Shown here: piece by piece, positions 16,676-53,469 of the stretch
Layout of the letters: every line of letters begins with the position of its first letter
How positions within the stretch are numbered: the stretch's first letter is position 1
Source: Microbispora sp. NBC_01189
GTDB lineage: Bacteria > Actinomycetota > Actinomycetes > Streptosporangiales > Streptosporangiaceae
Direction of reading: 5' to 3'
Assembly (NCBI RefSeq): GCF_036010665.1
Contig: NZ_CP108581.1
Coordinates: 6,195,501-6,259,500 of the forward strand
Length of the DNA stretch: 64,000 nucleotides
Made by a program: the position numbers and the translations under genes
Notes under the pieces: generated by a model
The model's database searches: none
The model's input: only the letters and a program-made list of their open reading frames with translations
What the model was told of the DNA's origin: nothing

Positions 16676-16683
16676 GGTTGGCG

Positions 16684-19600
16684 ATGAGTGACTCCGACGT
16701 CAAGCTGGTCGAGGCGCTACGGGCCTCGCTGAAGGAGACGGAACGGCTCCGCGGCGAGCACCGCAAAATCATCGCCGCCCAGCATGAGCCGATCGCCATC
16801 ATCGGAATGGCGTGCCGTTATCCGGGTGGGGTGGCCTCGCCGGAGGATTTGTGGCGGCTGGTGTCCGATGGTGTGGACGCGATTTCGGATTGGCCGGCTG
16901 ATCGTGGCTGGGATGTGGAGGGGTTGTTCGACCCGAGCGGGGAGCGGCCGAACACCAGTTATGTGAAGTCGGGTGGGTTCCTGCACGAGGCGGCGGAGTT
17001 CGACGCGGGGTTCTTCGGGATTTCGCCGAATGAGGCGCTGGTGATGGATCCGCAGCAGCGGTTGCTGCTGGAGACCTCGTGGGAGGCGATGGAGCGGGCG
17101 GGCATCGACCCGGGCGCGTTGCGGGGGTCGGCGACGGGGGTGTTCGCCGGGATGATGTACCACGACTACGCCGCGAACGCGAACACCGGGTCGATCGCCT
17201 CGGGCCGGGTGTCGTACGTGTTCGGGTTCGAGGGCCCGTCGGTCACGGTCGACACCGCGTGCTCCTCCTCGCTGGTGGCGTTGCATCTGGCCGGGCAGGC
17301 GCTGCGGTCGGGGGAGTGTTCGCTGGCGTTGGTGGGTGGTGTGGCGGTGATGGCCACGCCGGAGGCGATCATCGAGTTCTCCCGCCAGCGGGGGTTGTCG
17401 CCGGATGGGCGGTGCCGGTCGTTCGCGGCCGGGGCGGATGGCACGGCGTGGGCCGAGGGCTGTGGTGTGCTGCTGGTGGAGCGGTTGTCGGACGCGCGGC
17501 GGCTGGGGCACCGGGTGCTGGCGGTGGTGCGGGGTACGGCGGTGAACCAGGACGGCGCGTCGAACGGGCTGACCGCGCCGAACGGCCCGTCGCAGGAGCG
17601 GGTGATCCGCCAGGCGCTCGCGAACGCCCGCTTGTCGGTGCGGGACGTGGACGTGGTCGAAGGTCACGGCACCGGCACCACGCTGGGTGACCCGATCGAG
17701 GCGCAGGCGGTGCTCGCGACTTACGGGCAGGAGCGTCCGGAGGAGCGGCCGTTGTGGCTGGGATCGTTCAAGTCGAACATCGGGCACGCGCAGGCGGCGG
17801 CCGGTGTCGGTGGAATCATCAAGATGGTGCAGGCGATCCGGCACGGGGAGTTGCCGAGGACGCTGCATGTGGACGAGCCGTCCCCGCACATCGAGTGGTC
17901 GGCCGGTCAGGTCCGGCTGCTGACCGAGGCGATGCCGTGGCCGGAGGTGGACCGTCCCCGTCGGGCGGGTGTGTCGTCGTTCGGCATCAGCGGCACCAAC
18001 GCCCACGTCATCATCGAGCAGGCCCCCGCCGACCTCGCCGCCTCTGATGTCACTGTCACCGACGCACCCGCCCCGGCCGTGCTCACCGGCACCGCGCAGG
18101 CCGAGGGCGAGGAACAGGCCGGAGCCCCGGTTGCCTGGGTGCTGTCGGGCAGGACGCCGGACGCGCTGGCCGGGCAGGCGGCCCGGGTGCTGTCGTACGC
18201 GCAGGACAACCCTTCACTCGGCATCGCCGACATCGGCTACTCGCTGGCGACGACGCGCACGTCCTTCGAGCGTCGGGCGGTGGTCACCGGCGGCGACCGC
18301 GCCACCCTGCTGGCGAGGCTCGCCGCGGTGGCCGAGACCCGCACCGCACCCGGGGTGGTGCAGGGCATCGCCCGCTCCGGTGGCAAGATCGGCATGCTGT
18401 TCACCGGTCAGGGGGCCCAGCGGCTCGGCATGGGCCAGGAACTCCACGCGGCCTTCCCGGTGTTCGCGCAGGCCTTCGACGCCGTCGTCGCCGAGCTGGA
18501 CACGCACCTGGACCGGCCGCTGCGTGAGGTCATCTGGGGCGCCGACCCCCGCCTCGCCGACCAGACCGCGTACGCGCAGGCCGGACTGTTCGCCGTCGAG
18601 GTGGCCCTGTTCCGTCTTCTGGAGTCGTGGGGGGTGCGGCCGGACTACCTGGCCGGGCATTCCATCGGCGAGCTGACCGCTGCGCACGTCGCCGGGACGC
18701 TGTCGCTCGCCGACGCGTCCCGCCTGGTGGCGGCGCGGGGCCGGCTGATGCAGGCGCTCCCGCCCGGTGGGGCGATGGTCGCCGTCCAGGCCACCGAAGA
18801 CGAGGTGACCCCGCTCCTGACGGGCGGGGTGGACATCGCCGCCGTCAACGGCCCCCGCGCCGTGGTCATCTCGGGACAGGAAGCACCGGTGATGGCCCTC
18901 GCGGCGCAGTTCGCCGACCGGGGACGCAAGACCCGCCAGCTGCGGGTCTCCCACGCCTTCCACTCCCACATGATGGACCCGATGCTGGCCGGCTTCGCCG
19001 AGGTGGCCGGCACGGTGGCGTTCGACGCGCCGCGGATCCCGATCGTGTCGACCGTCACCGGCGCCCTCGCCGGTGAGGAGCTGGGTACCCCGCAATACTG
19101 GGTGGACCAGGTGCGCGGCGCCGTGCGGTTCGCCGACGCGGTGACCACCCTCGCCGCCCAGGGGGTGACCCGGTTCGTGGAGCTGGGGCCGGACGCGGTG
19201 CTGACCGCGATGGTCCAGCAGAGCCTCGACGAGGCCGACTCCGCGGTCTTCACCGCCACCATGCGGGCCGAGCGGCCCGAGCCCGGCACCGTCGTCGCGG
19301 CCCTCGGCCAGCTGCACACCACCGGCGTGCCGGTCGACTGGCACGCCTTCTACGCCGGGACCGGCGCCACCCGCGTGGACCTGCCCACCTACGCCTTCCA
19401 GCGCGAGCGCTACTGGCTCGACACCTACGACTATCTGTCCGAGTCCTGGGCGGCCGACTACGTCGGCAACCTGTCCTCCGCCGGGCTGGAGGCCGTCGAG
19501 CACCCGCTGCTCGGCGCGGTCATCCCCCTGCCCGACTCCGGGGGCCTGGTCCTCACCGGCAGGCTGTCGGTCCACACCCACCCGTGGCTGGCCGATCACC

Positions 19601-22600
19601 AGGTTTACGGGAACGTCCTGCTGCCGGGCACCGGATTCGTGGAGATGGCCGTCCACGCCGGGGACAAGGCCGGCTGCCCGATCCTGGAGGAGCTCACCCT
19701 CCAGGCGCCGCTGGTGCTGCCGGAGGGCGCCTACCGCGACGGCCTGGCGGTGCAGGTCGTCGTCGGGGCCGCGGACGACGCCGGCCGGCGGCCGCTGCTG
19801 GTGCGGTCCCGCCCCGACCACGACGCGGAGAGCTGGACCGTACACGCCCAGGGCGTGCTGGCCGAGGGACCGGACGTCCGCGGGGAGTCGCTCGAACAGT
19901 GGCCGCCGCCGGGCGCGACGCCGATCGACGTGCGGGGCGCGTACGAGGAGCTGCTCGCCGCCGGCTACGGCTACGGCCCGACCTTCCAGGGGCTGCGGGC
20001 GGCCTGGCGGCGCGGCGAGGACCTGTTCGCCGAGGTCGCCCTGCCCGACCAGGCGCACCAGGACGCCGCCCTCTTCGGGCTCCACCCCGCCCTGCTCGAC
20101 GCGTCGATGCACGCGATCCTGGTGGACGGCGACGGGCGGGGCGAGGGCGAGACGGTCCTCCCGTTCGTCTGGGGCGGCGTGTCGCTGCACGCCACCGGCG
20201 CGCCCGCGGCGCGGGTACGCCTCACGCCGTCGGCCACCCGGGGCCTGGCGCTGAACGTCGCCGACGCGACCGGCCGGCCCGTCCTCACGGTCGCGTCGCT
20301 GGTGTCCCGGCCGGTGTCGGCCGACCAGCTCAGCGCGACGCGGGACGTCGCCGACGAGGCGTTGTTCGGCATCGAGTGGAGCCCGTCGCCGGCCGCATCG
20401 GACGACACGAACTGGGCGGTTCTGGGCACGGGCCCGTTCCCCGACGGCGTGCCGGTCCTCGAGAGCCTCCGGGTGCTCGCGGACGCGGCCGTCGTGCCCG
20501 GCGCCGTGGTCTGGCAGGCGCCGGACGCGCCCGCCGCGGACGTTCCGTCCGGCGTCCGGTCGGTGACCACCGCGGTGCTGGAGATCGTGCAGGAGTGGCT
20601 GGCCGAGGACCGGTTCGCCGACGCGAGGCTGGTCGTGGTCACCCGGGGCGCGGTCGCGACCGGAGAGGCCGACGACCTGGCGCTGACCCAGGCGCCCGTG
20701 TGGGGCCTGGTGCGGGCCGCGATCGCGGAGAACCCGGGCAGGTTCGCCCTGCTGGACGTCGACGACCACCCCGGCTCGCCCGGCGCGGTCGCCGCCGCGG
20801 TCGCGTCGGCCGAGCCGGAGGCCGCGATCCGGGCCGGCGAGGTCCTCGTTCCCCGGTTCACGCGGCCCGCGCGGCCGGCCGAGGCGACCGCCCCGGCGCT
20901 GGACCCCGAGGGAACCGCGCTCATCACCGGCGGCACCGGCGGCCTCGGCGGGCTGCTCGCCCGCCACCTGGTCACGGCGTACGGCGTGCGCTCGCTCGTG
21001 CTCACCAGTCGGCGGGGCCCGGACGCGCCGGGCGCGGCGGAGCTGCGGGACGAGCTCACCGCGCTCGGCGCCGAGGTGACCATCGCCGCCTGCGACGCGG
21101 CCGACCGCGACGCGCTGGCCGAGGTGCTGGCGGCCATCCCGGCGGAGCGTCCGCTGACCGCCGTCGTGCACGCCGCCGGCGTCGCCGACAACGGCCTCGT
21201 CGGCGCGCTCACCCCGGAACGGCTGGCCGCCGTGCTCGCGCCGAAGGCCGACGCCGCGTGGCACCTGCACGAGCTGACCAAGGACCTCGACCTGGCCGCG
21301 TTCGTGCTGCTCTCCTCGGCGGGCGGCATGGTCCTCGCCGCCGGTCAGGGCAACTACGCCGCCGCGAACGTCTTCCTCGACGCGCTGGCCACCCACCGGC
21401 ACGCCTGCGGCCTGCCCGCCACGTCGATGGCGTACGGCCTGTGGGGTGTGGACGCCGGTCTCGGCGCGCTGCTCAGCGACGCCGACCTCACCCGCATGCG
21501 GCGCATGGGCTATCCCGCGCTCACCGCGGAGGACGGTCTGGCCCTCTTCGACGCGGCCCTCGCCGCCCCCGGCGCCGTACGTGTGCCGCTGCGCATCGAC
21601 CCGGTGGCCCTGCGCGCCAAGCCGGAGCAGCTTCCGCACCTGCTGCGCGGCCTCGTACGGGTGCCGATCCGGCAGGCGGCCCGTTCGGGCGGCGGCGAGG
21701 CGCTGCGGCAGCGGCTGGCCGGGCTCGGCGAGGCGGAGCGCTCGGCAGCGCTGCTCGACCTGGTGAGGTCGACCGTCGCGGCGGTGCTCGGCCACACCTC
21801 GGCCGACGCGATCGAGGCGGACCGCGCGTTCCAGGAGCTCGGCTTCGACTCGCTGTCCGCGGTCGAACTGCGCAACGTGCTGGGCGAGGCCACCGGGCTG
21901 CGGCTGCCCGCGACCCTCGTCTTCGACTATCCCAGCGCGCTCGCGGTGGCCGAGCACATCGGCGAGACGCTCAGCGGCACGCGGGACGAGGCCGGCGTCG
22001 CCGTGCGGGCGCCGCTCGACGACGAGCCGATCGCGATCATCGGCATGGCCTGCCGGTATCCCGGCGGGGTGGCCTCGCCGGAGGACCTGTGGCGGCTGGT
22101 CACCGACGGCGTCGACGCGGTGGGCGAGTTCCCCGCCGACCGCGGCTGGGACGTCGAGGGCATCTACGACCCGGAGCCGGGCGTCCCCGGCAAGACGTAC
22201 GCCCGCCACGGCGGGTTCCTGTACGACGCGGCGGAGTTCGACCCCGGCTTCTTCGGGATCTCTCCGAACGAAGCGGTGATGATGGACCCGCAGCAGCGGT
22301 TGCTGCTGGAGACTTCCTGGGAGGCGTTCGAGCGCGCGGGCATCGACCCGGGAGCGCTGCGCGGCAGCAGGACCGGGGTCTTCGCCGGGGTGATGTACCA
22401 CGACTATGGGCAGGGCGTCGGCGTCGCCAGCAGCAGCGGCGGCAGCCTCGTCTCCGGCCGGGTGGCCTACACCCTCGGGCTGGAGGGACCGGCCCTCACC
22501 GTGGACACGGCGTGTTCGTCGTCGCTGGTGGCGTTGCATCTGGCCGGGCAGGCGCTCAAGTCGGGGGAGTGCTCCCTGGCGCTGGCCGGCGGAGTCACCG

Positions 22601-25600
22601 TGATGTCCGAACCGGCCATGTTCATCGAGTTCTCCCGGCAGCGGGGGCTGTCGCCGGACGGCCGCTGCCGGTCGTTCGCGGCCGGCGCCAACGGCGCGGC
22701 CTGGGCGGAAGGCGCCGGACTGCTGCTCATGGAGCGGCTGTCGGACGCGCGCCGGCTCGGGCACCGGGTGCTCGCCGTGATCCGGGGCTCGGCGGTGAAC
22801 CAGGACGGCGCGTCCAACGGGTTCACGGCACCGAACGGCCCCTCCCAGCAGCGGGTGATTCGCCAGGCGCTGGCCAACGCCAGGTTGTCGGTGCGGGACG
22901 TGGACGTGGTCGAGGGCCACGGCACCGGAACCTCCCTCGGTGATCCGATCGAGGCGCAGGCGGTGCTCGCGACTTACGGGCAGGAGCGCCCGGAGGATCG
23001 GCCGTTGTGGCTGGGGTCGCTCAAGTCCAACATCGGCCACGCGCAGGCGGCGGCCGGTGTGGGCGGGGTCATCAAGATGGTGGAGGCGATCCGGCACGGG
23101 GTGCTGCCCAAGACGTTGCACGTGGACGAGCCGTCCCCGCACGTGGAGTGGTCGGCGGGCCAGGTCGAACTGTTGACCGAGGCGATGCCGTGGCCGGAGG
23201 TGGACCGTCCGCGCCGCGCGGCGGTGTCGTCGTTCGGCATCAGCGGCACCAACGCCCACGTCATCATCGAACAGGCCCCCGCCGACTTGGCAGTAGCGGA
23301 AGACATCTCCCCGATCCCGGCCGAGGGCGAGGCTCAGGCTGCGGCTCCGGTGGCGTGGGTGGTGTCGGGAAAGACGCCGGACGCGCTGGCCGGGCAGGCG
23401 GCGCGAGTGCTGGCCTTCGTGCAGGACCGCCCCTCCCTCAGCGTCGCGGACGTCGGCTTGTCGCTGGCGACGACGCGGGCGGCGTTCGAGCGGCGTGCGG
23501 TGGTCACCGGTGGTGACCGCGCCGATCTGCTGGCGGGGCTGGCGGCGGTGGCGGAGGGCCACACCGCTCCCGGGGTGGTGCAGGGTGTCGCCCGATCTTC
23601 GGGGAAGCTCGGTGTGCTGTTCACCGGTCAGGGCGCCCAGCGCCTCGGCATGGGCCGGGAACTCCACGCGGCCTTCCCCGTGTTCGCCGAAGCGTTCGAC
23701 GCCGTGGCAACCGAGCTGGATGCGCACATGGATCGGCCGCTGCGTGCGGTGATCTGGGGCGCCGACGCCGAGACGGTCGACCAGACGGCGTACGCGCAGG
23801 CGGGGTTGTTCGCCGTCGAGGTGGCGCTGTTCCGCCTCGTCGAGTCGTGGGGGGTGCGGCCCGACTACCTGGCCGGTCATTCGGTGGGTGAGCTGGCCGC
23901 CGCGCATGTGGCCGGGATGCTGAGTCTCTCGGATGCGTGCCGGCTGGTGGCGGCGCGGGGCCGGCTGATGCAGGCGCTCCCTGCGGGTGGGGCGATGGTC
24001 GCCGTGCAGGCCACCGAAGAAGAGGTACTGCCTCTGCTGACAGGCGGGGTGGACATCGCGGCGGTCAACGGGCCGCGTGCGGTGGTGGTCTCCGGGCAGG
24101 AAGCCCCGGTCCTCGCTTTGGCCGCGCAGTTGGCGGAGCAGGGCAGGAAGACGCGCCGGTTGCGGGTCTCCCACGCCTTCCACTCCCAGCTGATGGAGCC
24201 GATGCTCGCCGACTTCCAGACCGTGGCGGAGCCCCTGGACTATGGGCGGCCGTCCATCCCGATCGTGTCCACCGTCACCGGCGGCCTCGCCGACGACGGG
24301 TTCGGCACCCCGGAGTACTGGGTGGGCCAGGTGCGGGGCGCGGTGCGGTTCGCCGACGCCGTTACCACCCTGGCTGAGCAGGGTGTGACCCGGTTCGTCG
24401 AGCTGGGCCCGGACGCGGTGCTCACCGCGATGGCCCAGCAGACCCTCGACGACGCCGACAGCACGGTCTTCACGGCCACCATGCGGGCCGGACGCCCCGA
24501 GCCGGGCACGGTCGTCGCGGCCCTCGGCCAGCTCCACACCGCCGGCGTTCCCGTCGACTGGCAGGCCTTCTACGCCGACACCGGCGCCACCCGGGTCGAC
24601 CTGCCCACCTACGCCTTCCAGCGTCAGCACTACTGGGTGCCGCCGAACCGCGACGGCGTGAACGCGGAGTCGGCCGGGCTCGCGACGGTCGAGCACCCGC
24701 TGCTCGGCGCCGCGATCCCCGCGCCGGACTCGGACGCGGTGGTCTTCACCGGCCGGCTGTCCGTGCGGAGTCATCCGTGGTTGGCCGATCATCAGGTGTT
24801 CGGGAGTGTGTTGTTGCCGGGGACCGGTCTGGTGGAGCTGGCGCTGCACGCGGCCGAGCACACCGGGTGCGGCCAGGTGGAGGAGTTGACGCTGGCGGCG
24901 CCGCTGGTGCTGCCGGCGGCCGGGTCCGGTGAGGGCGCGGTGCAGGTGCAGGTGGTGGTCGGCGCCGCCGACGGCGACGGCCGCCGTACGATGGCGATCT
25001 ACTCGCGGGCCGCGCAGGCCCCGGCCGACCTGCCCTGGACGCTGCACGCCGAAGGCGTCCTGGCCTCCGAGACCGCGCAGAATGGTGTGGACCTGAGCCA
25101 GTGGCCTCCGGACGAGGCCACCGCGGTGGACCTCACCGACGCCTACCCGATCCTCAACGAGCGCGGCTACGGCTACGGCCCGGCCTTCCAGGGACTGCGG
25201 GCGGCCTGGCGACGCGGCGAGGAACTGTACGCCGAAGTCGCCCTGCCCGACCACGAACACCAGGACGCCGCACTCTTCGGACTCCACCCCGCGCTGCTCG
25301 ACGCCGCCATGCACGGGCTGAGCTTCGCCGTACCCGACGAGGCGGACGACGCGCAACGCACGCTGCTGCCGTTCGCCTGGCACGGGGTCGCGCTGCACGC
25401 GGTGGGCGCGCGGGCCCTGCGGGTGCGGCTGACCTGGCTCAGTGAGAACACGCTGGCGCTGGACATCGCCGATCCGGCCGGTACGCCGGTCGCCTCGGTC
25501 GAGCGCCTGACGCTGCGGGCGATCTCGCCGGAGCAGCTGGCCGCGAGCCGGCCGGGCGGACTGGAGACGCTGCTGCGCCCGGAATGGAGTGAGCTGCCCG

Positions 25601-28077
25601 GCACGCGGGCCGAACCGGCCACCGACGCCTGGGTGGCGGTCGGCGGCGACGGTCTCGGCCTCGGCATCCCTGTCGTGGACGACGTCACCGGGCTGGCCGC
25701 CCTCCCGGCGGCGCCGGAGGTGGCGATCTTCCGCTGCCCCGCCCCGGAGACCGGAGACGTCCTGGCCGGCGTCCGCGGCGCGGCGGACGCCGTGCTGACC
25801 ATGGTGCGGGACTGGCTCGCCGACGAGCGTTTGATCGACGCCCGGCTGGTCGTGGTCACCTCGGACGCCGCGCCCGCCGCGCTCACCGTCGACCCGGGGC
25901 TGGCGCCGGTCTGGGGTGTGCTGCGGGCCGCGCAGGCGGAGAACCCGGGCCGGTTCACCATCCTCGACCTGGACGGCACCGAGACTCCCGCGGTGGTGGC
26001 CCAGGCGGTCGTGTCGCGGGAGCCCGAGGTGATCGTGCGGAACGGCGTGGCCGGCGTGCCGCGGCTGGTGCCCGTCCCGGCGGCGGCCGAAGCGCCGGAG
26101 TCGCCGTGGCGTCCGGACCGCACCGTGCTCGTCACGGGAGGCACGGGCGGGCTCGGCAGCCTCGTCGCGCGGCATCTCGTGGTGCGGCACGGCGTACGCC
26201 ACCTGCTGCTGACCAGCCGCAGCGGCCTGGCCGCCGCGGGCGCATCGGAGCTGGTCGCCGAGCTGTCCGCGCACGGCGCGACGGTCACCGTCGCCTCCTG
26301 CGACGTCTCCGACCGCGACCAGCTGGCCGGGCTGCTGGCGGGCGTGCCCGCCGAGCACCCGCTCGGCGGCGTGGTGCACGTGGCCGGGATCGGCGACAAC
26401 GGCCTGGTCGCCACGATGACGCCGGAGCGGCTGGACGGCGTGCTGCGGCCCAAGGCCGACGCCGCCTGGCACCTGCACGAGCTGACCCGCGACCTGGACC
26501 TGACCGCGTTCGCGCTGTTCTCCTCGGCCGGCGGCCAGGTGCTCGCCGCCGGGCAGGCCAGCTACGCGGCGGCCAACGTCTTCCTGGACGCCCTGGCGGT
26601 CCACCGGCACGCGAGCGGCCTGCCGGCCACCGCGATGGCGTTCGGCCTCTGGGACGTGGACACGGGGCTGAGCCAGTGGCTCAGCGACACCGACCTGCAC
26701 CGGCTCCGCCGCCAGGGCCTGCCGCCGCTGACCGCCGAGGAGGGCCTGGCGTTGTTCGACGCGGCGCTGGCGTCGCCGTACCCGGCGCTCACGCCGCTGA
26801 GCGTCGACCGCGCCGCGCTCCGCTCCCGCCCCGGGGAGCCGCCGGCGCTGCTGCGCGGCCTCGCCGGCACGGGGCGGCGCCGGGCGAGCGTCGGCCAGGC
26901 CGACCCGGGCGCGTTCCGCGACCGGCTGGCCGGTCTCGGTGAGCCGGAGCGGAAGGCCGCGCTGGAGGACCTGGTGCGGGGCGTCGCCGCCGTGCTGCTG
27001 GGCCACGCCGGGGCGGCCGACGTCGACCTCGACAAGGACTTCCTGGAGTCCGGGTTCGACTCGCTGTCGGCGATGGAGCTGCGCAACGGCCTCAACGCGG
27101 CCACCGGCCTGCGGCTGCCGCCGATGGTGGTGTTCGACAGCAAGACGCCGCGGGAGCTGGCGGCGTACCTGCACGACGAGATGGCGGTCACGCCGGCCGG
27201 CGCCCCCGCGCCGGGGGCGGCCGCCACGCCGGCGGCGGGGGAGCGGGCGCCCGACACGCTGAGCGCCCTGTTCCGCGCCGCGATCACCGACAACCAGGTG
27301 GCGGGGGCGTTCGACCTGCTGCGCGCGGTGTCCAACCTGCGGCCGAAGTTCACCACCCCGGCCGACCTCGGCGGGCCGATCCCGGCGGTGCAGCTCGCCG
27401 ACGGCCCGGCGCGGCCGCGGCTGATCTGCCTGTCGACGCCGATGGTCACCGGCGGCGTCCACCAGCACGCCCGGCTCGTACGGCACCTCACCCCGCGGCA
27501 CGTCTCGGCCATCCCGACGCCGGGATTCACGGCCGGCGACAGCCTTCCCGCGACGCCGGAGGCGGGCGTGCTCGCGCTGGCCGAGGCCGTCATCGCTGCG
27601 GCCGGGGGCGAGCCGTTCGTGCTGCTCGGTTACTCCTCCGGCGGCACCCTCGCCCACGCGACCGCCGCGTGCCTGGAGGAGCGGTACGGGACCGCGCCCA
27701 GCGGCCTGGTCCTGCTCGACACCTTCAAGCTGCACGAGGGCGCCGGGCAGGCGATCCCGATGCAGCGGCTCGCGGCCGGCCTGTTCGACGTCGAGGAGAT
27801 GTTCGGCGGCTTCGACAGCGCCCGGCTGTCCGGCATGGGCTGCTGGTTCGACATGCTGCCCGACCTCGACATCGGCACGGTGTCCGCGCCGGTGCTGTTC
27901 GCGCAGTGCACCGAGTCGTTCCTCGGCCCCGAGCCCGAGGACGGGTGGCAGGCCACGTCGTGGGACGCGGCCCACACCGTACGGCAGGTGCGGGCGAACC
28001 ACTTCACCATGATCGACGAACGCGCGCATGTCACGGCGCGGGTCGTCGACGAATGGCTGCAGTCCATTTCCGGCTGA
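16684..28077 (+). CDS. Type I modular PKS B: two KS-AT-DH-KR-ACP modules and terminal thioesterase
   Basis: 3797 residues. An N-terminal docking coiled coil (residues about 5-35, heptads around [16 protein letters not shown]) precedes two full modules and a thioesterase of about 270 residues. The ATG at 16684 is preferred over an in-frame GTG at 16672 because GAGG at 16674-16677 sits 6 bp before it. Both ATs have HAFH (malonyl). Both KRs lack LDD (ADN and GDN instead). The thioesterase has GYSSG with the nucleophile Ser at 27634-27636, an Asp in LLDTF and a His at 28000-28002 (ANHFTM). As the only protein with a release domain it is the last in the assembly line; with an amino starter, release by intramolecular amide formation to a macrolactam is expected. 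It follows PKS A by 8 bp and is probably co-transcribed with it. Confidence 0.97.
16795..22010 (+). other. PKS B, module B1: KS-AT-DH-KR-ACP, malonyl
   Basis: KS Cys 17260-17262; AT Ser 18661-18663 (GHSIG) with [12 protein letters not shown] His 19597-19599 in intact HxxxGxxxxP; KR with GGTGGLG and AGVADNG (about 21178) where LDD is expected, and SSAGG...[10 protein letters not shown] Ser 21850-21852. No Trp is present where A-type KRs have one, so alcohol configuration cannot be read from the motifs. Confidence 0.94.
22024..27230 (+). other. PKS B, module B2: KS-AT-DH-KR-ACP, malonyl (last extension)
   Basis: KS Cys 22513-22515; AT Ser 23881-23883 with [12 protein letters not shown] His 24790-24792 in intact HxxxGxxxxP; KR with GGTGGLG and AGIGDNG (about 26386); ACP Ser 27061-27063 in SGFDSL. 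The KS differs from B1 ([12 protein letters not shown] stretch) and resembles C3, while the AT and DH parts match the A modules, so the module is a mosaic. Confidence 0.94.
27265..28074 (+). other. PKS B, thioesterase domain
   Basis: Alpha/beta-hydrolase thioesterase of the PKS type with the opening strand [12 protein letters not shown], nucleophile motif GYSSG (Ser 27634-27636), Asp in LLDTF and His in ANHF (28000-28002). Expected to cyclise the finished chain; macrolactam closure through the starter amine is inferred from the neighbouring starter cassette. Confidence 0.93.
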
Positions 28078-28138: not shown

Positions 28139-29074
28139 ATGGCTCTCGCGCCGAACGCGAAGGGCACCGTGCCCTTCGGTGAATACCGGACGTGGTATCG
28201 GGTGACCGGCGATCTGCGGGCGGGCGTGCCGCCTCTGGTGGTCGCGCACGGCGGTCCCGGCAGCACCCACGATTACCTGCGCAATATCGCCGAGCTCGCC
28301 GGGTACGGCCGTCCGGTCGTCCACTACGACCAGCTGGGAAACGGCGGCTCGACCCGCCTGCCCGGCCGGGGCGCCGATTTCTGGACTCCCCAGTTGTTCC
28401 TGGACGAACTGGAGAATCTGCTGGGCGCGCTCGGCATCGCCGGCGACTACACGCTGCTCGGCCATTCCTGGGGCGGCGTGCTGGCCGCGCGGCACGCGGC
28501 GACACGGCCCGCCGGCCTGCGCGGGCTGATCATCGCGAACTCCCCGGCGTCGTACCCCCTGTGGCTGCGGGAACTGGCGGTGCTGCGCCGCGCGCTCCCG
28601 CCGGACGTCGCGGAGACGCTCACCCGGCACGAGGAGGCCGGCACCACCGACAGCGCGGAGTACGTGCGGGCCGTGAAGGTCTTCAACGACCGGCACGTCT
28701 GCCGTCTCGACCCGCTGCCCAGGGACTTCGTCGCCTCCCTGATGGAGATCCACGACGACCCCGCCGTCTACTACACGATGAACGGGCCGAGTGAGTTCCA
28801 CGTCAACGGCACGCTGCGCGACTACTCCGTCGTCGACCGCTGCCCCGACATCGCCGTGCCCACGCTGCTCATCTCCGGCAGGCACGACGAGGTGACTCCG
28901 GCAGCCGTCCAGCCGTTCGCCGATCTCATTCCCGACGTCCGCTGGCAGATTTTCGAGGATTCCAGCCACCTGCCGCATCTGGAGGAGCCGGAGCGTTTTC
29001 TGCGGGTTGTCCGGGAGTTCCTGGAGAGCGTCCCGGACCGCGGTGCGACGCCCGTGCGGGCAGGCGATTTCTAA
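28139..29074 (+). CDS. Alpha/beta hydrolase of the proline iminopeptidase family, likely VinJ-type deprotecting amidase
   Basis: 311 residues. Proline-iminopeptidase features: HGGPG oxyanion motif (residues 37-41), GHSWGG nucleophile elbow with Ser110, Asp250 in SGRHDE and His277 in SSHLPH. In vicenistatin biosynthesis VinJ, of this family, removes the amino-acid cap from the N-terminus of the polyketide chain so that the free amine can close the macrolactam; the same job is inferred here from the complete starter cassette that follows. It begins 61 bp after the thioesterase gene, with GAGGAA 5 bp before the ATG. An ordinary peptidase role is possible but unlikely in this position. Confidence 0.85.
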   Translation: MALAPNAKGTVPFGEYRTWYRVTGDLRAGVPPLVVAHGGPGSTHDYLRNIAELAGYGRPVVHYDQLGNGGSTRLPGRGADFWTPQLFLDELENLLGALGIAGDYTLLGHSWGGVLAARHAATRPAGLRGLIIANSPASYPLWLRELAVLRRALPPDVAETLTRHEEAGTTDSAEYVRAVKVFNDRHVCRLDPLPRDFVASLMEIHDDPAVYYTMNGPSEFHVNGTLRDYSVVDRCPDIAVPTLLISGRHDEVTPAAVQPFADLIPDVRWQIFEDSSHLPHLEEPERFLRVVREFLESVPDRGATPVRAGDF

Positions 29075-29173: not shown

Positions 29174-30538
29174 ATGACGCTGCTTGCTGGCAGTTCCTTG
29201 GAGGTCGGGCGATTTCGCGCCTACGGCCCTCGTCATATCGATGAGATCGGTGACAGGTACGGGCTTTCCGGCGACGCCCGCGAGGCGATCCGGCTGATCT
29301 CGCTCGTCCTGCCGTTCCGGGTCAACGACTACGTCCTGTCCCAGTTGATCGACTGGACCCGCGTCCCCGACGACCCGATCTACCGGCTGGTGTTCCCGCA
29401 GCGCGGGATGCTGTCGGACGAGCAGGAGCGGATCCTGTCCGTGTTCAGCGCCACCGGCGACCGGAGCCGCCTCCAGGAGGCCGTCCGGACCATCCGCGCG
29501 GACCTCAACCCGCATCCGTCCGGGCAGAAGGAGCTGAACGTGCCCACCCTGGGCGACGTGCAGATCCCCGGCCTCCAGCACAAGTACCGCGAGACGGTCC
29601 TGTACTTCCCGAGCCAGGGCCAGACCTGCCACGCCTACTGCACCTACTGCTTCCGGTGGGCGCAGTTCGTCGGCGACGCGGACCTCCGCTTCGCCGCGCC
29701 GAACCCCGACCAGCTGATCACCTACCTCGGCCGGCACCCCGACGTCTCGGACGTGCTGATCACCGGCGGCGACCCGATGATCATGACGACGGAGCGGCTG
29801 CGCGGCCACATCGAGCCGCTGCTCGCCGTGGACACCGTGCGCACGATCCGGATCGGCAGCAAGTCGCCCGCCTACTGGCCGTACCGGTACACCACCGACC
29901 CCGACGCCGACGACCTGCTGCGGCTGTTCGAGCGGGTGGTGGCCTCGGGCCGGACGCTCGCGGTCATGGCGCACTACAGCCACCCCCGCGAGCTGGAGAC
30001 CGACGAGGCGCGCACCGCGCTGGCCAGGATCCGGCGCACCGGCGCGGTGGTGTACTGCCAGGCCCCGCTCATCAAGTACGTCAACGACGACGTGGACACC
30101 TGGGCCCGGCTCTGGCGGCTGGAGTTCGCCGCCGGGGCGGTGCCGTACTACCAGTTCGTCGAGCGGGACACCGGGCCGCACGCCTACTTCCGGGTGCCGC
30201 TCGCCCGCTCGGTGGAGATCTTCCACGGGGCGTTCCGCACGCTGCCCGGCCTCGCGCGGACGGTGCGCGGACCGGTCATGTCCGCGACCCCCGGCAAGGT
30301 GATCGTGGACGGGGTCGAGGAGACCCCGCAGGGCCGCTACTTCCGCCTGCGGTTCATGCAGGCCCGCCAGCCGTCGCTCGTCGGCCGTCCCTTCCGGGCG
30401 CACTACTCGCCGACGGCCGCCTGGCTCACCGAGCTCGAACTCGACCCGGACACCCCCGACGACATCATGACGGCCATCGACGGCGGGGCGGCCCGGATCG
30501 GGCGGTGGACGAGGGAGGCGGCCCATGCCCAGTCGTAG
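29174..30538 (+). CDS. Radical SAM 2,3-aminomutase (KamA family), probably glutamate 2,3-aminomutase
   Basis: 454 residues. The radical-SAM cluster motif CxxxCxxC is Cys152-Cys156-Cys159 (CHAYCTYC), followed by TGGDP (197-201), as in lysine 2,3-aminomutases, which use SAM, a 4Fe-4S cluster and PLP to move an alpha-amino group to the beta carbon. The stretch beginning PYYQF aligns with the lysine enzyme, but the Asp that holds the lysine side-chain amine is Arg331 (codon 30164-30166) and the second Asp is Ala371. A positive charge there suits a side-chain carboxylate, so L-glutamate is the better guess, as for IdnL4 of incednine. The PLP lysine is probably Lys375 in TPGK. GGAGGA lies 7 bp before the ATG. 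The 3' end overlaps the next gene by 14 bp. Confidence 0.87.
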   Translation: MTLLAGSSLEVGRFRAYGPRHIDEIGDRYGLSGDAREAIRLISLVLPFRVNDYVLSQLIDWTRVPDDPIYRLVFPQRGMLSDEQERILSVFSATGDRSRLQEAVRTIRADLNPHPSGQKELNVPTLGDVQIPGLQHKYRETVLYFPSQGQTCHAYCTYCFRWAQFVGDADLRFAAPNPDQLITYLGRHPDVSDVLITGGDPMIMTTERLRGHIEPLLAVDTVRTIRIGSKSPAYWPYRYTTDPDADDLLRLFERVVASGRTLAVMAHYSHPRELETDEARTALARIRRTGAVVYCQAPLIKYVNDDVDTWARLWRLEFAAGAVPYYQFVERDTGPHAYFRVPLARSVEIFHGAFRTLPGLARTVRGPVMSATPGKVIVDGVEETPQGRYFRLRFMQARQPSLVGRPFRAHYSPTAAWLTELELDPDTPDDIMTAIDGGAARIGRWTREAAHAQS

Positions 30539-31826
30539 CGTCTCCCCGAACCTCGCGCTCGACCAGCTCGTCGCCCGGCGCAGAGCCGAGGGCGCCGCCA
30601 TCGTGCACCTGGGCTTCGGCGAGTCACGGCTGCCGGTCTTCCGGCCGCTGGTCTCCCGCCTGCTGGAGGGCGCGTCGCGCAACGCGTACGGACCGGTGGC
30701 GGGCTCCGCCGAGGCGCGCGCGGCGGTGGCCGGCTACTTCACCCGCCGCCGCATGCCGACCGACGCCGACCAGACGGTGCTCGCGCCGGGCAGCAAACCG
30801 CTGCTGATGGCGCTGCAACTGGTGCTCCCCGGGGACGTCCTGCTGGCCAGGCCGTCCTGGGTCACCTACGCGCCGCAGGCGCGGCTGGCCGGCAAGCAGG
30901 TGTTCGGGGTGCCGATCCCGGACGAGTGCGGCGGCGTGCCGGAGCCGGAGGCGCTGCGCGAGACCATCCGGTCCGCGCGCGCGTCCGGGCACAACCCCCG
31001 CATCCTGGTCCTCACCACGCCGGACAACCCGACCGGCACGGTCGCCTCGCCGGCCCTCGTCCGCGAGTTGTGCGAGATCGCCGAGAGCGAGGACCTGCTG
31101 ATCCTCTCCGACGAGATCTACCGCGACATCGTGCACGACCCCTGGCGCCCGGTGCTGAGCCCGGCGGAGGTCGTGCCGGACCGGACGATCGTGCTGACCG
31201 GCCTGAGCAAGAGCATCGCGCTCGGCGGCTGGCGGATCGGCGCCGCCCGGTTCCCGTCCGGCCCGTGGGGCGAGCGGATCCGCGACGAGGTGCTCGCGGT
31301 CGCCAGCGAGATCTGGTCGACCCTGGCGGGCCCCATGCAGGCCGTGGCGGAGTACGTGTTCGCCGAGCCGCCCGAGGTGGTGCGCCGCATCGCCGCGGAC
31401 ACCCGCCTGCACGGCGTCGTGGCGAACGCCGTCCACGAGATCATGGCAGGCGCGGGCGCGCTGTGCCGCCCGCCGACCGGCGGTTTCTACGTCTACCCGG
31501 ACTTCGGACCGCTGCGCGAGAGGCTCGACTGGCACGGCGTCACCGACTCGGCGTCCCTGCAGCGGGTGCTGCTCGACGACTTCGGGGTGGCGGTGCTCGG
31601 CGGCCACCACCTCGGCGACGACCCCGGCGCGCTGCGCTTCCGCGCGGCGACCAGCATGCTCTACGGCCAGACCGCGGAACAGCGCGAGGCCGCGCTCTAC
31701 GCCGAACGGCCCCTTTCCCTGCCGCATATCCGCGACGAACTCGACCTGCTCGAGGAAAAGCTGTCGGTGTTCGTCTCGTCTGGGGTTACTAAGGGTGCCG
31801 CCGCGTTCCCCGCCGGTGTACGTTGA
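30525..31826 (+). CDS. Fold-type I PLP enzyme (aminotransferase class I/II), candidate beta-glutamate beta-decarboxylase
   Basis: 433 residues with the class I aminotransferase signature: Asn168 in PDNPTG, Asp196 and Tyr199 in SDEIY, and the PLP lysine Lys229 in SKSIALGGWRIG. By sequence it could be a transaminase. Context argues for decarboxylation: in incednine biosynthesis IdnL3, a PLP enzyme paired with the glutamate aminomutase, converts beta-glutamate to (S)-3-aminobutyrate. Here the ATG lies inside the aminomutase gene (14-bp overlap), so the two are translationally coupled and should act on consecutive intermediates. The decarboxylase assignment is inference; no residue that I can name separates the two activities. 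Confidence 0.72.
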   Translation: MPSRSVSPNLALDQLVARRRAEGAAIVHLGFGESRLPVFRPLVSRLLEGASRNAYGPVAGSAEARAAVAGYFTRRRMPTDADQTVLAPGSKPLLMALQLVLPGDVLLARPSWVTYAPQARLAGKQVFGVPIPDECGGVPEPEALRETIRSARASGHNPRILVLTTPDNPTGTVASPALVRELCEIAESEDLLILSDEIYRDIVHDPWRPVLSPAEVVPDRTIVLTGLSKSIALGGWRIGAARFPSGPWGERIRDEVLAVASEIWSTLAGPMQAVAEYVFAEPPEVVRRIAADTRLHGVVANAVHEIMAGAGALCRPPTGGFYVYPDFGPLRERLDWHGVTDSASLQRVLLDDFGVAVLGGHHLGDDPGALRFRAATSMLYGQTAEQREAALYAERPLSLPHIRDELDLLEEKLSVFVSSGVTKGAAAFPAGVR

Positions 31827-31863
31827 AATTCGAATCAGCCGCTATGTGAATGTGAGGAATGCC

Positions 31864-32163
31864 ATGCCTGTCGACGGCAAGTGGGCGGTCGAAATGCAGA
31901 GCCCCATGGGCAAGCAGACCCTTTTCTTCGACCTGAAGTCGAACGGGGAGGAACTGGTCGGCGCGCTTACCGGAACCGATGAGCCGAACCCCGAGCTGCT
32001 GGAGGGCAAGGTCACCGGCAACGCCGTCACCTGGAAGCTCAAGGTGACCAAGCCCATGCCGATCAAGCTGAAGTTCACCGCCACGATCAACGACAGCACT
32101 CTGTACGGCCAGGTGAAGCCGGGCATGTTCCCCGGCTTCCCGATCACGGGCCGCCGCCTTTGA
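31864..32163 (+). CDS. Small conserved protein of unknown function, predicted all-beta
   Basis: 99 residues, no signal peptide or membrane segment. The chain alternates polar and hydrophobic residues in short strands separated by Gly, Asp and Asn turns (DGKWAVEM, GKQTLFFDL, NAVTWKLKV, IKLKFTATI), as in a small beta-barrel or lipocalin-like fold. I recall similar about 100-residue proteins in many bacteria, annotated as hypothetical, but know of no function. The ATG at 31864 is chosen because GAGGA lies 5 bp upstream; a GTG 69 bp further upstream in the same frame is less likely. It sits in the starter cassette and its stop is 2 bp before the next gene, so it is co-translated with the loading enzymes and may assist there. 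Confidence 0.8.
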   Translation: MPVDGKWAVEMQSPMGKQTLFFDLKSNGEELVGALTGTDEPNPELLEGKVTGNAVTWKLKVTKPMPIKLKFTATINDSTLYGQVKPGMFPGFPITGRRL

Positions 32164-32165
32164 GC

Positions 32166-33182
32166 ATGGACAGCGCCATCGTTTTTCCCGGCATGGGGCC
32201 GTGCGACTTCACGACCGTGGCCAGGTTCATGCTGGTCAACCCGGTCGCCAGGCGGCTGGTGGCGGTCGCCGGCGACGTGCTGGGATATGACCTCTTCGAA
32301 CGCTACCGCGAGACGGGCGGCGACTATTCCGAATACGCGCAGGTCGCCTTCTTTGTCAACTGCGTGGCGCTCGCGACGTGGGCGCGGGAGGAGTCCGGCG
32401 TCGCGCCGGGCCTGTGCGCCGGAGCGAGTTTCGGCGGCAAGGCGGCCGCCGTCCACTCCGGCGCGCTGAGCTTCGCCGACGGGGTGCGGCTCACCGCCGA
32501 ACTGGTGCGCTACGAGACCGAATATTTCGCGGCCGAGCACCCCGACGTGGTGACCCAGTCGTTCGTGCGGGTGCCGAAGGAGAAGCTGGCCGAACTGCTC
32601 GCCGAGATGGACGAACGCGGCGAGTGGTACGAGGTCTCCTGTCACGTCGACGACGACTTCCACATGCTGTCCGTACGGCGCGACGTGCTCGACGGGCTGC
32701 GGAGCCGGCTGCGGGCGCACGGCGGGCTTCCGCTCTACGTCATGGACCCGCCCCTGCACTGCCGCGCCTTCGGCGGCCTGCGGGACAGGGTGGAGGCCGA
32801 ACTGTTCCCGACGCTCACGTTCACGGACCCGGTGATTCCGGTCGTCGCGGACCAGGACGGTGGCGTACGGGACACCGCGGCCGGCGTCCGGGACATCCTG
32901 CTCGACGGGATCGTCCGCCCGGTCCGCTGGCCGGCCGTCGTCGGCACGTTGCGGGAGCGGGGCGTCACGAAGCTCTACGTCTCCGGTCCCGACCAGCTCT
33001 GGGGCCGGGTGGGCGTCACCACCCGCAACTTCGAGGTCGTCGCGCTCGACCCGCGCTGGGCCACGCGTCCGCGCCGGCGGGACCGCGCCGCCCAGGAGCA
33101 CCGCACGGCCCAGGAGCGCGGCGCCGCCCAACAGCGCGCCGCACAAGACACCTTCGCCCGAGCCGGGGCGAGCCCTTCCTAG
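32166..33182 (+). CDS. Discrete acyltransferase, VinK-like (starter transfer to the loading ACP)
   Basis: 338 residues, a stand-alone AT with FPGMGP near the N-terminus, the nucleophile Ser88 in GASFG and a His198 in PPLHC. The family (VinK in vicenistatin) moves the protected beta-aminoacyl group from the discrete ACP to the loading ACP of the PKS rather than loading malonyl-CoA. The presence of a discrete ACP next door and an ACP at the start of PKS C fits this. The ATG at 32166 is favoured; a TTG two codons earlier overlaps the previous stop. The last about 35 residues are a low-complexity tail rich in Arg, Gln and Ala that normal ATs lack. Confidence 0.85.
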   Translation: MDSAIVFPGMGPCDFTTVARFMLVNPVARRLVAVAGDVLGYDLFERYRETGGDYSEYAQVAFFVNCVALATWAREESGVAPGLCAGASFGGKAAAVHSGALSFADGVRLTAELVRYETEYFAAEHPDVVTQSFVRVPKEKLAELLAEMDERGEWYEVSCHVDDDFHMLSVRRDVLDGLRSRLRAHGGLPLYVMDPPLHCRAFGGLRDRVEAELFPTLTFTDPVIPVVADQDGGVRDTAAGVRDILLDGIVRPVRWPAVVGTLRERGVTKLYVSGPDQLWGRVGVTTRNFEVVALDPRWATRPRRRDRAAQEHRTAQERGAAQQRAAQDTFARAGASPS

Positions 33183-33208: not shown

Positions 33209-33445
33209 ATGTGGGACGAGCGATTCGAGACCTTACTCCGCAAACACCTGCCGTTCCTGCCGGACGGGACCCAGCTCACGGAGGGCAGCGACCTGCGTGA
33301 CCTCGGCCTCGACTCAATGAGCATGGTCGACCTGCTCGCGTCACTGGAGAGCACCTACCAGGTCCGCTTCCGCGACGACATGCTCAGCCTCGGCAACTTC
33401 GCCACGCCGGGCGCGCTCTGGGCGACGCTCAGCACGGTCACGTGA
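33209..33445 (+). CDS. Discrete acyl carrier protein, VinL-like
   Basis: 78 residues. The carrier motif DLGLDSM holds the phosphopantetheine Ser36; flanking helices are typical of an ACP. It should carry the adenylated beta-amino acid and then its capped dipeptide form before transfer to PKS C. The ATG at 33209 has GAGAG about 7 bp upstream; an in-frame GTG at 33194 is the alternative start. The stop overlaps the next start (GTGA at 33442-33445), so carrier and ligase are translationally coupled. Confidence 0.9.
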   Translation: MWDERFETLLRKHLPFLPDGTQLTEGSDLRDLGLDSMSMVDLLASLESTYQVRFRDDMLSLGNFATPGALWATLSTVT

Positions 33446-34956
33446 CCGGCGTGACCGACGAGCACGCGCTGTACGACCGGTTCCTGCGCGGGCTCGCGCT
33501 GGCGCCCGACCGCCCGGCCGTCAGGGACGGCGACCGGGTGCTCACCTACGCGGAGCTCCACGAGCACGCGCTCCGCCTGGCGGGCGCGCTGCTCGACGTC
33601 GTGGGCGCGCGGCCGAAGGCGGTCGGCGTGCTGGCCGGCAAGTCCGTGGAGAGCTACGCCGGCATTCTCGCCGGGCTCTACTCCGGAGCCGCGGTCGCGC
33701 CGCTGCACCCGGACTTCCCGGTCGAGCGGACCCGGCGCATGCTGACCGCCGCGGACGTCTCCGTGGTGCTCGCGGACGGGCACGGGCGGCGGCTGCTCGA
33801 CGAGATCGTCGCGTCGGGCACGGACATCCCGGTGATCGGCGTCGACCGGCCCGTCGCCGGGACGGCGCTCGACGCCCCGCTGCCGGTGGCGCCGACCGAC
33901 ATCGCGTACCTGCTGTTCACCTCCGGATCGACGGGCCGGCCCAAGGGTGTGCCGATCACGCACGCCAGCACCGCCCACTACTTCCGGCTGATGGACGAGC
34001 GCTACGACTTCGGCCCGGACGACGTGTTCTCACAGACGTTCGACCTGAACTTCGACTGCGCGATGTTCGACATGTTCTGCGCGTGGGGCGCGGGCGCGAG
34101 CGTGCACCCGGTGCCGGCCACCGCCTACCTCGACCTGCCGGCCTTCCTGGCCGAGCGGCGGATGACCGTCTGGTTCTCCACGCCGAGCGGCATCGTCCTG
34201 GTCCGCAGGCGGGGCGGACTCACGCCCGGCTCGATGCCGACGCTCCGCTGGAGCCTGTTCGCGGGCGAGGCGCTGCGCGGGGACGACGCGGCCGGCTGGC
34301 AGGCCGCCGCCCCCGGGTCGACCCTGGAGAACATCTACGGTCCGACCGAGCTGACCATCACCGTCACCGGGCACCGCTGGTCGCCGGAGACCTCGCCGGG
34401 GCTGTGCGTCAACGGCCTGGCGCCGATCGGCGCGGTGCACGAGGGCCACGACTGGCTGCTGCGCACCGCGGACGGCGAGCACAGCGACACCGAGGGCGAG
34501 CTGTGCATCACCGGCCCGCAGCTGACCTCGGGATATCTGGACACCGCCGACAACGAGGGCAGGTTCCTGCACCACGACGGCCGTGGCTGGTATCGCACCG
34601 GAGACCGCGTGCGGGTCCTGCCGAACGGCGAGCTGGTCTATCTGGGACGGCTGGACTCGCAGGTGCAGGTCCAGGGCTGGCGGGTGGAGCTCGCCGAGAT
34701 CGAGCACGCCCTGCGCTCCTGCCCAGGCGTCCAGGACGCCGTCGCGGTGACGCGTACGGTCGACGGCACCACCGAGCTGGTGACCTTCTACACCGGCGTG
34801 CCCACCCGGCAGGCCGAGCTGGCCGGCCGGCTGCGCCGGGTACTGCCGTCCGGCCTGCTGCCCCGGGAGTACCGGCACGTCGAGGACTTCCCGCTGAACT
34901 CCAACCGGAAGGTCGACCGGGCCCGCCTCGCCCGGGAGGCCGCCGCGATCGCCTGA
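33442..34956 (+). CDS. Stand-alone adenylation enzyme, VinM-like (amino-group capping ligase candidate)
   Basis: 504 residues with the adenylation core motifs in order: LLFTSGSTGRPKG (phosphate loop), FDCAMFD (substrate Asp region), IYGPTE, YRTGD, GRLDSQVQVQGWR and, near the C-terminus, NSNRKVDR with the catalytic Lys. No carrier domain is attached. In vicenistatin-type pathways two such enzymes act: one loads the beta-amino acid, the other adds L-alanine to the beta-amino group as protection. The FD before the pocket resembles alpha-amino acid activating domains, so this one is assigned the capping role; the reverse-strand enzyme is the better beta-amino acid ligase. The assignment between the two could be swapped. 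Start GTG at 33442 overlaps the ACP stop by 4 bp. Confidence 0.82.
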   Translation: MTGVTDEHALYDRFLRGLALAPDRPAVRDGDRVLTYAELHEHALRLAGALLDVVGARPKAVGVLAGKSVESYAGILAGLYSGAAVAPLHPDFPVERTRRMLTAADVSVVLADGHGRRLLDEIVASGTDIPVIGVDRPVAGTALDAPLPVAPTDIAYLLFTSGSTGRPKGVPITHASTAHYFRLMDERYDFGPDDVFSQTFDLNFDCAMFDMFCAWGAGASVHPVPATAYLDLPAFLAERRMTVWFSTPSGIVLVRRRGGLTPGSMPTLRWSLFAGEALRGDDAAGWQAAAPGSTLENIYGPTELTITVTGHRWSPETSPGLCVNGLAPIGAVHEGHDWLLRTADGEHSDTEGELCITGPQLTSGYLDTADNEGRFLHHDGRGWYRTGDRVRVLPNGELVYLGRLDSQVQVQGWRVELAEIEHALRSCPGVQDAVAVTRTVDGTTELVTFYTGVPTRQAELAGRLRRVLPSGLLPREYRHVEDFPLNSNRKVDRARLAREAAAIA

Positions 34957-35195: not shown

Positions 35196-36767
35196 TCACC
35201 CGTGCTGGGCGGCCAGCGCCAGGCGGTCCACCTTCCCGTTGGGCGTGAGGGGCAGCTCGCGCAGCTGCACGATGCGCTGCGGAGCCATGTAGTCGGGCAG
35301 CGTGGCCAGGCAGAACGCCTCCAGGTCGCGGTGCTCCAGCGCGGGCGCGCCGGGCTCCAGCACGACGAAGGCCGCGAGCACCGGATCTCCTCCCGGTCGC
35401 GGCAGCATGGTCGCCGCGGCCCCGGCGATGCCGGGGAACTCGAGGATCCGCCGCTCCACCTCGCCGAGTTCGACCCGGTTGCCGCGGATCTTCACCTGCG
35501 AGTCGGCCCGGCCGCAGAAGTACAGCTCGCCTGACGCGCCGAGATAGGCGAGGTCGCCCGTACGGAAGACCGGCTGGCCGGAGCGCGGGTTGAGAGGGTC
35601 GGGCACGAGCGCCCTCGCGGTCGCCTCGGGGTCGTCCCAGTAGCCGCTGAACAGGGCGGCGCTGCGCAGGTAGAGCTCGCCGACGACGCCGGGCGTGTTG
35701 ATCGGGTTGCCCGACTCGCCGATCAGCATCAGGTCCGCGCCCTGGTGCGCGCGGCCGATGGACAGGCGCTTCTGGTCGGGCGGGAGCGGGTTGGGCACGT
35801 CGGTCAGGGAGGCGGCGATCGACTCCGTGCTGCCGAAGCAGTTCACGATCCGCACGCCGGGCAGCAGCTCCTGGATCCGCCGCAGCTCGGGAAGCGGGAA
35901 GTTCTCGCCGGAGTAGAGGATGCCGGAGATCCGGTTGAGCTCCGCGAGGGCGCCGGCCTCGTGCCGCAGCACCGGCCGCCAGATCGACGGCACCCCGTTG
36001 ACCTGCGTGACCTGCGCGTCCCGCAGGAACCCGACGAACCGCCTGGGCCAGCGGAGCAGGTCGCGCGGCACCGGCACGACGGCGGCGCCGCTGCCGAGGG
36101 CGAGCGCGATGTCGAGCAGCGAGAAGTCGAACTGGAACGGCGACGTGGACGCCACCCGCCCGCCGGGCCCGACGATCTCGTGGGCCAGCATCCCGCGGAA
36201 GAAGGCGAGGGCCGCCCGGTGGCTCATCACCACCCCCTTCGGCCGGCCGGTGCTGCCCGACGTGAAGATCATGTACGCCGGGTCCGACGGGATCGGCGTG
36301 CGCCACTCGGCCCGGCGGCCCCGGGGTGCGGTGTCGATCCGCACCCCGTCGGGGCCGAACACCCCGGTCCCGACCTCCGGCGGAAGTTCGACCTCCGGCC
36401 GGCCGGCGGCGCGCAGGTAGAGCGCCGGCTCGGCCGACTCGACGATGGACAGCCGCCGGGCCCGCGGGGTCTCGCTGCTCACCGGGATGTAGGTGACGCC
36501 CCGCGCCGAGCAGGCCAGGAACATCGCGATTCCCGCCGCGGTGGTGTCCGACTCGAGCACGACGCGGTCGCCGACGTCGAGGTCCGCCGCGTCGAGCCCG
36601 GCGGCGTACTCCTCCACCCGGCGCAGCAGTCCTTCGTAGGTGATGACGTCGAATTCGCCGTCGCCGCGCGGCTGTATGACGGCTGGACTGTCCGGCGTCC
36701 ATTCCGCCCATTGCAAGAGGAATTCGTGCAGCAGATCGTTACCCAGACGGATCCGGTGCAGAGACAT
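35196..36767 (-). CDS. Stand-alone adenylation enzyme, VinN/IdnL1-like beta-amino acid:ACP ligase candidate
   Basis: 523 residues on the reverse strand, with MIFTSGSTGRPKG, FQFDFSLLD, CFGSTE, FRTGD, GRADSQVKIRGNR and the C-terminal TPNGKVDR Lys. The Asp of FQFDFS corresponds to the residue that contacts the beta-amino group in VinN-type ligases, so this enzyme is assigned activation of the beta-amino acid (3-aminobutyrate expected) onto the discrete ACP. The ATG at 36767 is taken as start; the frame stays open to a TTG at 36818, but no clear ribosome-binding site marks either. It is divergent from PKS C and convergent with the other adenylation gene, and is the only reverse-strand gene inside the biosynthetic block. 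Confidence 0.83.
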   Translation of the reverse strand: MSLHRIRLGNDLLHEFLLQWAEWTPDSPAVIQPRGDGEFDVITYEGLLRRVEEYAAGLDAADLDVGDRVVLESDTTAAGIAMFLACSARGVTYIPVSSETPRARRLSIVESAEPALYLRAAGRPEVELPPEVGTGVFGPDGVRIDTAPRGRRAEWRTPIPSDPAYMIFTSGSTGRPKGVVMSHRAALAFFRGMLAHEIVGPGGRVASTSPFQFDFSLLDIALALGSGAAVVPVPRDLLRWPRRFVGFLRDAQVTQVNGVPSIWRPVLRHEAGALAELNRISGILYSGENFPLPELRRIQELLPGVRIVNCFGSTESIAASLTDVPNPLPPDQKRLSIGRAHQGADLMLIGESGNPINTPGVVGELYLRSAALFSGYWDDPEATARALVPDPLNPRSGQPVFRTGDLAYLGASGELYFCGRADSQVKIRGNRVELGEVERRILEFPGIAGAAATMLPRPGGDPVLAAFVVLEPGAPALEHRDLEAFCLATLPDYMAPQRIVQLRELPLTPNGKVDRLALAAQHG

Positions 36768-36957
36768 ATGGCCATGGATCACTATTTTTTGATAACACTC
36801 CACCGCGACTTCCGGCAACGCCGGGCGCCGCGACCGCGGGCGAAGTCTGGGGGCGATAGGGGTTATTGGGCGGGTGATTCCCTGTCTTATGGTTTGCCTA
36901 GATAGTGGGTGAGATGTGTCGCCTTTTCAGGCACCTATATTTCGGCAGAGGTACGCC
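36768..36957. promoter_or_regulatory. Divergent promoter region between the reverse adenylation gene and PKS C
   Basis: 190 bp, clearly less GC-rich than the flanking genes. For PKS C a possible promoter is TTGGGC (36866-36871) with TATGGT (36888-36893), 16 bp apart, about 65 bp before the ATG; AGAGG at 36947-36951 is the ribosome-binding site. I could not pick a convincing promoter for the reverse gene. This is the only place where the early PKS genes C and D can be switched separately from the cassette. Confidence 0.4.

Positions 36958-53469
<16,512 letters not shown>

Follow-up and report, generated by a model that had tools for sequence, protein, structure and literature searches.

Which amino acid does a lysine 2,3-aminomutase-like enzyme use once the acids that anchor the lysine side chain have been lost? 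The question is raised by a gene in Microbispora sp. NBC_01189, located in a stretch of 64,000 nucleotides (contig NZ_CP108581.1, positions 6,195,501 to 6,259,500), hereafter the window, whose own numbering is used throughout. The gene (29174–30538, forward strand) encodes a 454-residue KamA-type aminomutase of the radical S-adenosylmethionine (SAM) and pyridoxal 5'-phosphate (PLP) class. With a probability of roughly 85%, it is predicted to be an IdnL4-type glutamate 2,3-aminomutase within a cluster for a macrolactam primed with 3-aminobutyrate. By analogy, its neighbours appear to argue for glutamate better than the pocket does, forming an incednine-type starter cassette in which glutamate is converted to beta-glutamate (IdnL4) and then to 3-aminobutyrate (IdnL3). 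The deduced function is the assignment already accepted for such genes, and the pathway is known from incednine.

The aminomutase and its starter cassette

The aminomutase matches one solved sequence, the lysine 2,3-aminomutase (LAM) 2A5H (phmmer E 1e-22; 74-sequence profile E 2e-110). The same entry is the best fold match of its AlphaFold2 model (Foldseek E 6e-20; mean predicted local distance difference test score 90.0). Beyond this fold, it shares with LAM (TIGR03820) the CxxxCxxC motif of cluster-binding cysteines (C152, C156 and C159), Arg161 (LAM Arg134) and the PLP Schiff-base lysine, Lys375 (30296–30298, forward strand), aligned with LAM Lys337.

The gene overlaps by 14 bases a second gene (30525–31826, forward strand) encoding a PLP fold-type I enzyme (PF00155), predicted from its conserved adjacency to be an IdnL3-type beta-glutamate decarboxylase. 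Following it on the same strand are a VinK-type dipeptidyltransferase (32160–33182; PF21124 VinK_C; 5czc, E 2e-115), a stand-alone acyl carrier protein (ACP) of 78 residues with a GLDSM motif (33209–33445, from the open reading frame ending at 33445), and a second adenylation enzyme of the VinM/IdnL7 type (33442–34956; 8k4r, E 2e-194; 6akd, E 2e-184), predicted to attach the amino acid that serves as protecting group. A VinJ-type amidohydrolase of the proline iminopeptidase family precedes the aminomutase (28139–29074, forward strand; 3wmr, E 8e-139). Two type I polyketide synthase (PKS) genes, both on the forward strand and recognized from their translations, flank the cassette, one with two modules and a thioesterase-like region at its end (16672–28077), the other opening with an ACP-like region and probably encoding the loading protein (36916–53469).

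The starter unit itself is indicated by a beta-amino-acid adenylation enzyme on the reverse strand (35196–36818), whose best solved match is IdnL1 (5jjq, E 7e-204). In IdnL1 (5JJQ), L220 fits 3-aminobutyrate, the corresponding residue of CmiS6 being G220 (PMC11253843). Leu occupies the L220 position in the window enzyme and also in the counterparts at other loci with the PLP gene; the position was mapped by reading the alignment, where, past FDF, Leu stands opposite the Gly of 5JJP (CmiS6).

This combination of radical SAM aminomutase, PLP decarboxylase, IdnL1-type enzyme, VinK, VinM and VinJ homologues and type I PKS resembles the incednine cluster of Streptomyces sp. ML694-90F3; the host differs, being Microbispora, and the likeness is drawn from cluster content. 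In incednine biosynthesis, feeding runs via glutamate and beta-glutamate, IdnL3 has demonstrated beta-glutamate decarboxylase activity, and disruption of idnL4 confirms the role of IdnL4 in 3-aminobutyrate supply (PMC11284099). This gene pair has also been described for salinilactam, micromonolactam, lobosamide, pretilactam, silvalactam and mirilactam (PMC9230918), and IdnL4 together with IdnL3 has served as a marker of 3-aminobutyrate clusters (PMC10662134).

Residues at the side-chain columns

LAM carries side-chain acids at Asp293 and Asp330, and neither is kept in the window aminomutase, where the two columns hold Arg331 (cgg, 30164–30166, forward strand) and Ser370 (30281–30283, forward strand). 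A preliminary description of this DNA had reported the loss of both acids and named Arg331 and Ala371 as their replacements, over a span that is exact, with 30164 opening the Arg331 codon and 30286 closing that of Ala371 (gcg, 30284–30286). The loss and the placement of Arg331 on the Asp293 column hold, while the second residue shifts by one. In the 74-sequence profile, Arg331 aligns with 2A5H Asp293, with no gap between PYY and this column. The multiple alignment concurs, placing Asp here in the lysine-model sequences and Lys in the near-members of the glutamate model. Both alignments pair Ser370 with Asp330 and Ala371 with Ala331, and in both the loop is two residues shorter than that of LAM, the shortening falling after S-A. 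TPGK replaces GGGGK, as the shortened Gly run had been described, and a short loop is common to the nearest other KamA group.

In AlphaFold2 models of the window protein and of a LAM-like sequence (L141), Arg331 and the LAM-like Asp both lie two residues beyond the equivalent strand end; the strand ending near residue 370 is compatible with either 370 or 371. By alignment, Ser370 is the likely Asp330 counterpart, with a residual chance of an off-by-one shift to Ala371. Two other pairings were rejected: E330 as the Asp293 counterpart, suggested by a single-sequence phmmer alignment, requires an inserted gap and falls at a position that varies (E/A across the family), and Ala371 as second pocket residue is contradicted by both alignments and by its drift to Thr, position 371 being A or T across homologues.

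Arg331 is invariant in 105 non-identical homologues, one of 90 such positions among 454, and is thus not a chance occurrence. All intact homologues keep Ser370, the sole exception (L052) leaving the family sequence from residue 368 on. As read from these alignments, the pair that stands in place of the two acids is R/S and belongs to the whole family rather than to the window protein alone. Describing an R/A pair as a third variant was an overstatement, because Arg also occupies this column in another KamA group (L122–L127). The comparison behind that description was with known glutamate 2,3-aminomutases, of which the Clostridium enzyme reportedly carries Lys and Asn. In the near-members of the glutamate model TIGR04368 (L111–L115), the pair is K/S: Lys matches Arg331 in its positive charge at the Asp293 column, and Ser stands at the Asp330 column as in the window protein.

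The proposed mechanism, each catalytic step of which is deduced by analogy with the lysine enzyme, would begin with cleavage of SAM on the [4Fe-4S] cluster, generating a 5'-deoxyadenosyl radical. Glutamate would be bound as a PLP imine at Lys375, its alpha-carboxylate held by Arg161, while Arg331 would hold the side-chain carboxylate where LAM uses an acid to bind the lysine amino group. Migration of the amino group from C2 to C3 would yield beta-glutamate, which the product of the overlapping PLP gene would decarboxylate to (S)-3-aminobutyrate. The IdnL1-type enzyme would then load 3-aminobutyrate onto the ACP and the second ligase cap its amine. The VinK-type transferase would hand the capped unit to the PKS; before ring closure, the VinJ-type hydrolase would strip the cap.

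Judged from its column and conservation, Arg331 probably contacts the substrate, and it offers a testable residue for the choice of glutamate by IdnL4-type enzymes; IdnL4 itself has shown no activity in vitro. A less probable but substantial alternative is that Arg331 is structural, making no contact with the substrate and belonging to a conserved RDTGP loop, with selectivity arising from other residues. Invariance covers all of RDTGP, not only its Arg, and Arg is found at this column in KamA groups of unassigned function; set against this, the column is that of the substrate-binding Asp of LAM and of the Lys of glutamate-type sequences. Such a structural role competes with the anchoring step only and is compatible with the pathway role.

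Family placement and choice of substrate

The aminomutase scores under the cut-off of every NCBIfam KamA model. It reaches 120.5 bits with the KamA family model TIGR00238 (cut-off 199.2), being homologous yet outside the curated cut-off, and 106.9 bits against 525.4 with TIGR03820. In the tree, it groups with the members of a 61-row clade (support 97), whose neighbour is a clade comprising 20 non-cluster proteins of actinobacteria (support 100); the tree was built with a quick method, and flagged long branches leave its deep order unsafe. An IdnL3-like PLP gene lies no more than about 100 bases from the aminomutase gene in 49 of 58 cluster-clade loci and in none of the 22 other loci within the flanks examined; 20 loci, of the macrolactam type, also carry a VinK homologue. 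The enzyme stands on a little-described branch of its own, with an invariant Arg where lysine-specific relatives carry an acid. Compared with TIGR04368, the predicted reaction is the same, while the window aminomutase lies on a different tree branch and has a shorter loop before the PLP lysine. By analogy, its activity is probably that of a glutamate 2,3-aminomutase, though it falls outside that model. Should the IdnL4 assignment be correct, glutamate use would have arisen on a branch apart from the clostridial enzyme, a reading with which the tree agrees and which suggests an origin of glutamate specificity outside the clostridial glutamate aminomutase family.

Several observations weigh against the assignment to IdnL4-type glutamate 2,3-aminomutases. 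With TIGR04368 the protein scores 77.6 bits, far under the 650-bit cut-off, and membership in the clostridial family was rejected accordingly. The nearest other KamA group (L122–L127; 154–217 bits to the family profile, compared with 77–116 for the other KamA sequences tested) combines Arg at the Asp293 column with a short loop (SHPTGK, SHASGK). Since Arg occurs there, its presence at this column is not unique, nor can it identify glutamate as the substrate on its own. The proposed orthology to IdnL4 is drawn from gene context and the linked IdnL1-type enzyme, and feeding data for such clusters are not always consistent, salinilactam being one example (PMC9230918). The earlier proposal that the positive charge of Arg331 points to glutamate is probably right as to substrate, which is well supported, mainly by a gene context matching incednine.

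An acidic substrate other than free L-glutamate, such as 2-aminoadipate, glutamine, or a carrier-bound or amidated form, is improbable. It would explain why IdnL4 is reported without activity in vitro (PMC11284099), and Arg331 suits any carboxylate, but the incednine feeding via glutamate and beta-glutamate and the action of IdnL3 on beta-glutamate speak for the free amino acid. Least probable of all is lysine or another cationic amino acid, with a misleading alignment and other residues holding the amino group, as the overall fold and the nearest solved relative might suggest: Arg replaces the side-chain anchor acid, no acid is kept at either column, and the cassette includes an IdnL1-type enzyme for 3-aminobutyrate. 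Among the substrates proposed earlier for an activity assay, aspartate would tell little, because a C2-to-C3 shift of its amino group simply regenerates aspartate.

Relatives within and outside biosynthetic clusters

The R/S pair extends to 41 non-cluster homologues. In Streptosporangiales, the non-cluster KamA homologue with this pair (L058–L062, L064–L070, L072–L080, L086–L110) is often encoded beside argS and a plsX-like gene. The Streptosporangiales paralogue, exemplified by L058 of Nocardiopsis listeri, shares 55–61% identity with the window protein, the invariant RDTGP and, in nearly all cases, MSATPGK. It differs in lying outside a biosynthetic cluster, with no PLP decarboxylase nearby. 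Matches to the window protein (E < 1e-30) occur in 300 of 347 Streptosporangiales genomes, nearly all of the non-cluster type and mostly in single copy; elsewhere in the class, 13 of about 350 sampled genomes match (E < 1e-100), cluster copies included. All 40 genomes of the genus taken as Nocardiopsis hold the non-cluster paralogue. In the genome of the window, the cluster gene is the only copy, and most of the other genomes in this genus lack any copy.

Beta-glutamate is reported from Nocardiopsis halophila (PMC1224877), and a link between the paralogue and this beta-glutamate is possible. More broadly, and tentatively, the R/S branch could represent a second, separately evolved glutamate 2,3-aminomutase whose members outside clusters produce beta-glutamate as a regular metabolite, perhaps a compatible solute, across Streptosporangiales. 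Two observations count against such a role: the residues right before Gln296 are Arg-Thr in the non-cluster proteins, where most cluster-type proteins have Tyr-Cys, and the neighbouring genes (arginyl-tRNA synthetase, PlsX-like) provide no functional hint. The paralogue is a candidate source of actinobacterial beta-glutamate.

Within the window, a 122-residue open reading frame (31795–32163) sits between the PLP and VinK genes; it has no Pfam or NCBIfam match and, among the loci examined, is confined to Microbispora (L001). Cluster content varies among the related loci. Two aminomutase clusters (L025, L031) are devoid of the PLP decarboxylase. The pocket of the adenylation enzyme linked to the aminomutase differs in these clusters (FDLSLFD, NSFGHTE), as would be anticipated were no 3-aminobutyrate produced at these loci; these pockets suggest that beta-glutamate itself may be activated. 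Catenulispora copies in the cluster clade (L049, L053, L054, L056) adjoin a ROK-like regulator, without PLP or adenylation genes nearby, and a copy with the same motifs occurs outside such a cassette in Acanthopleuribacter pedis (Acidobacteriota; L057). Another type of Streptomyces cluster, apparently non-PKS, contains the aminomutase and PLP pair as well (L008, L009, L010, L016, L020, L021, L024, L028, L033, L045, L050). It adds ATP-grasp-like, carbamoyltransferase-like, condensation-like and acyl-CoA dehydrogenase-like proteins and an IdnL1-type adenylation enzyme, all named by reading the sequences rather than by family search, and probably makes another product derived from 3-aminobutyrate.
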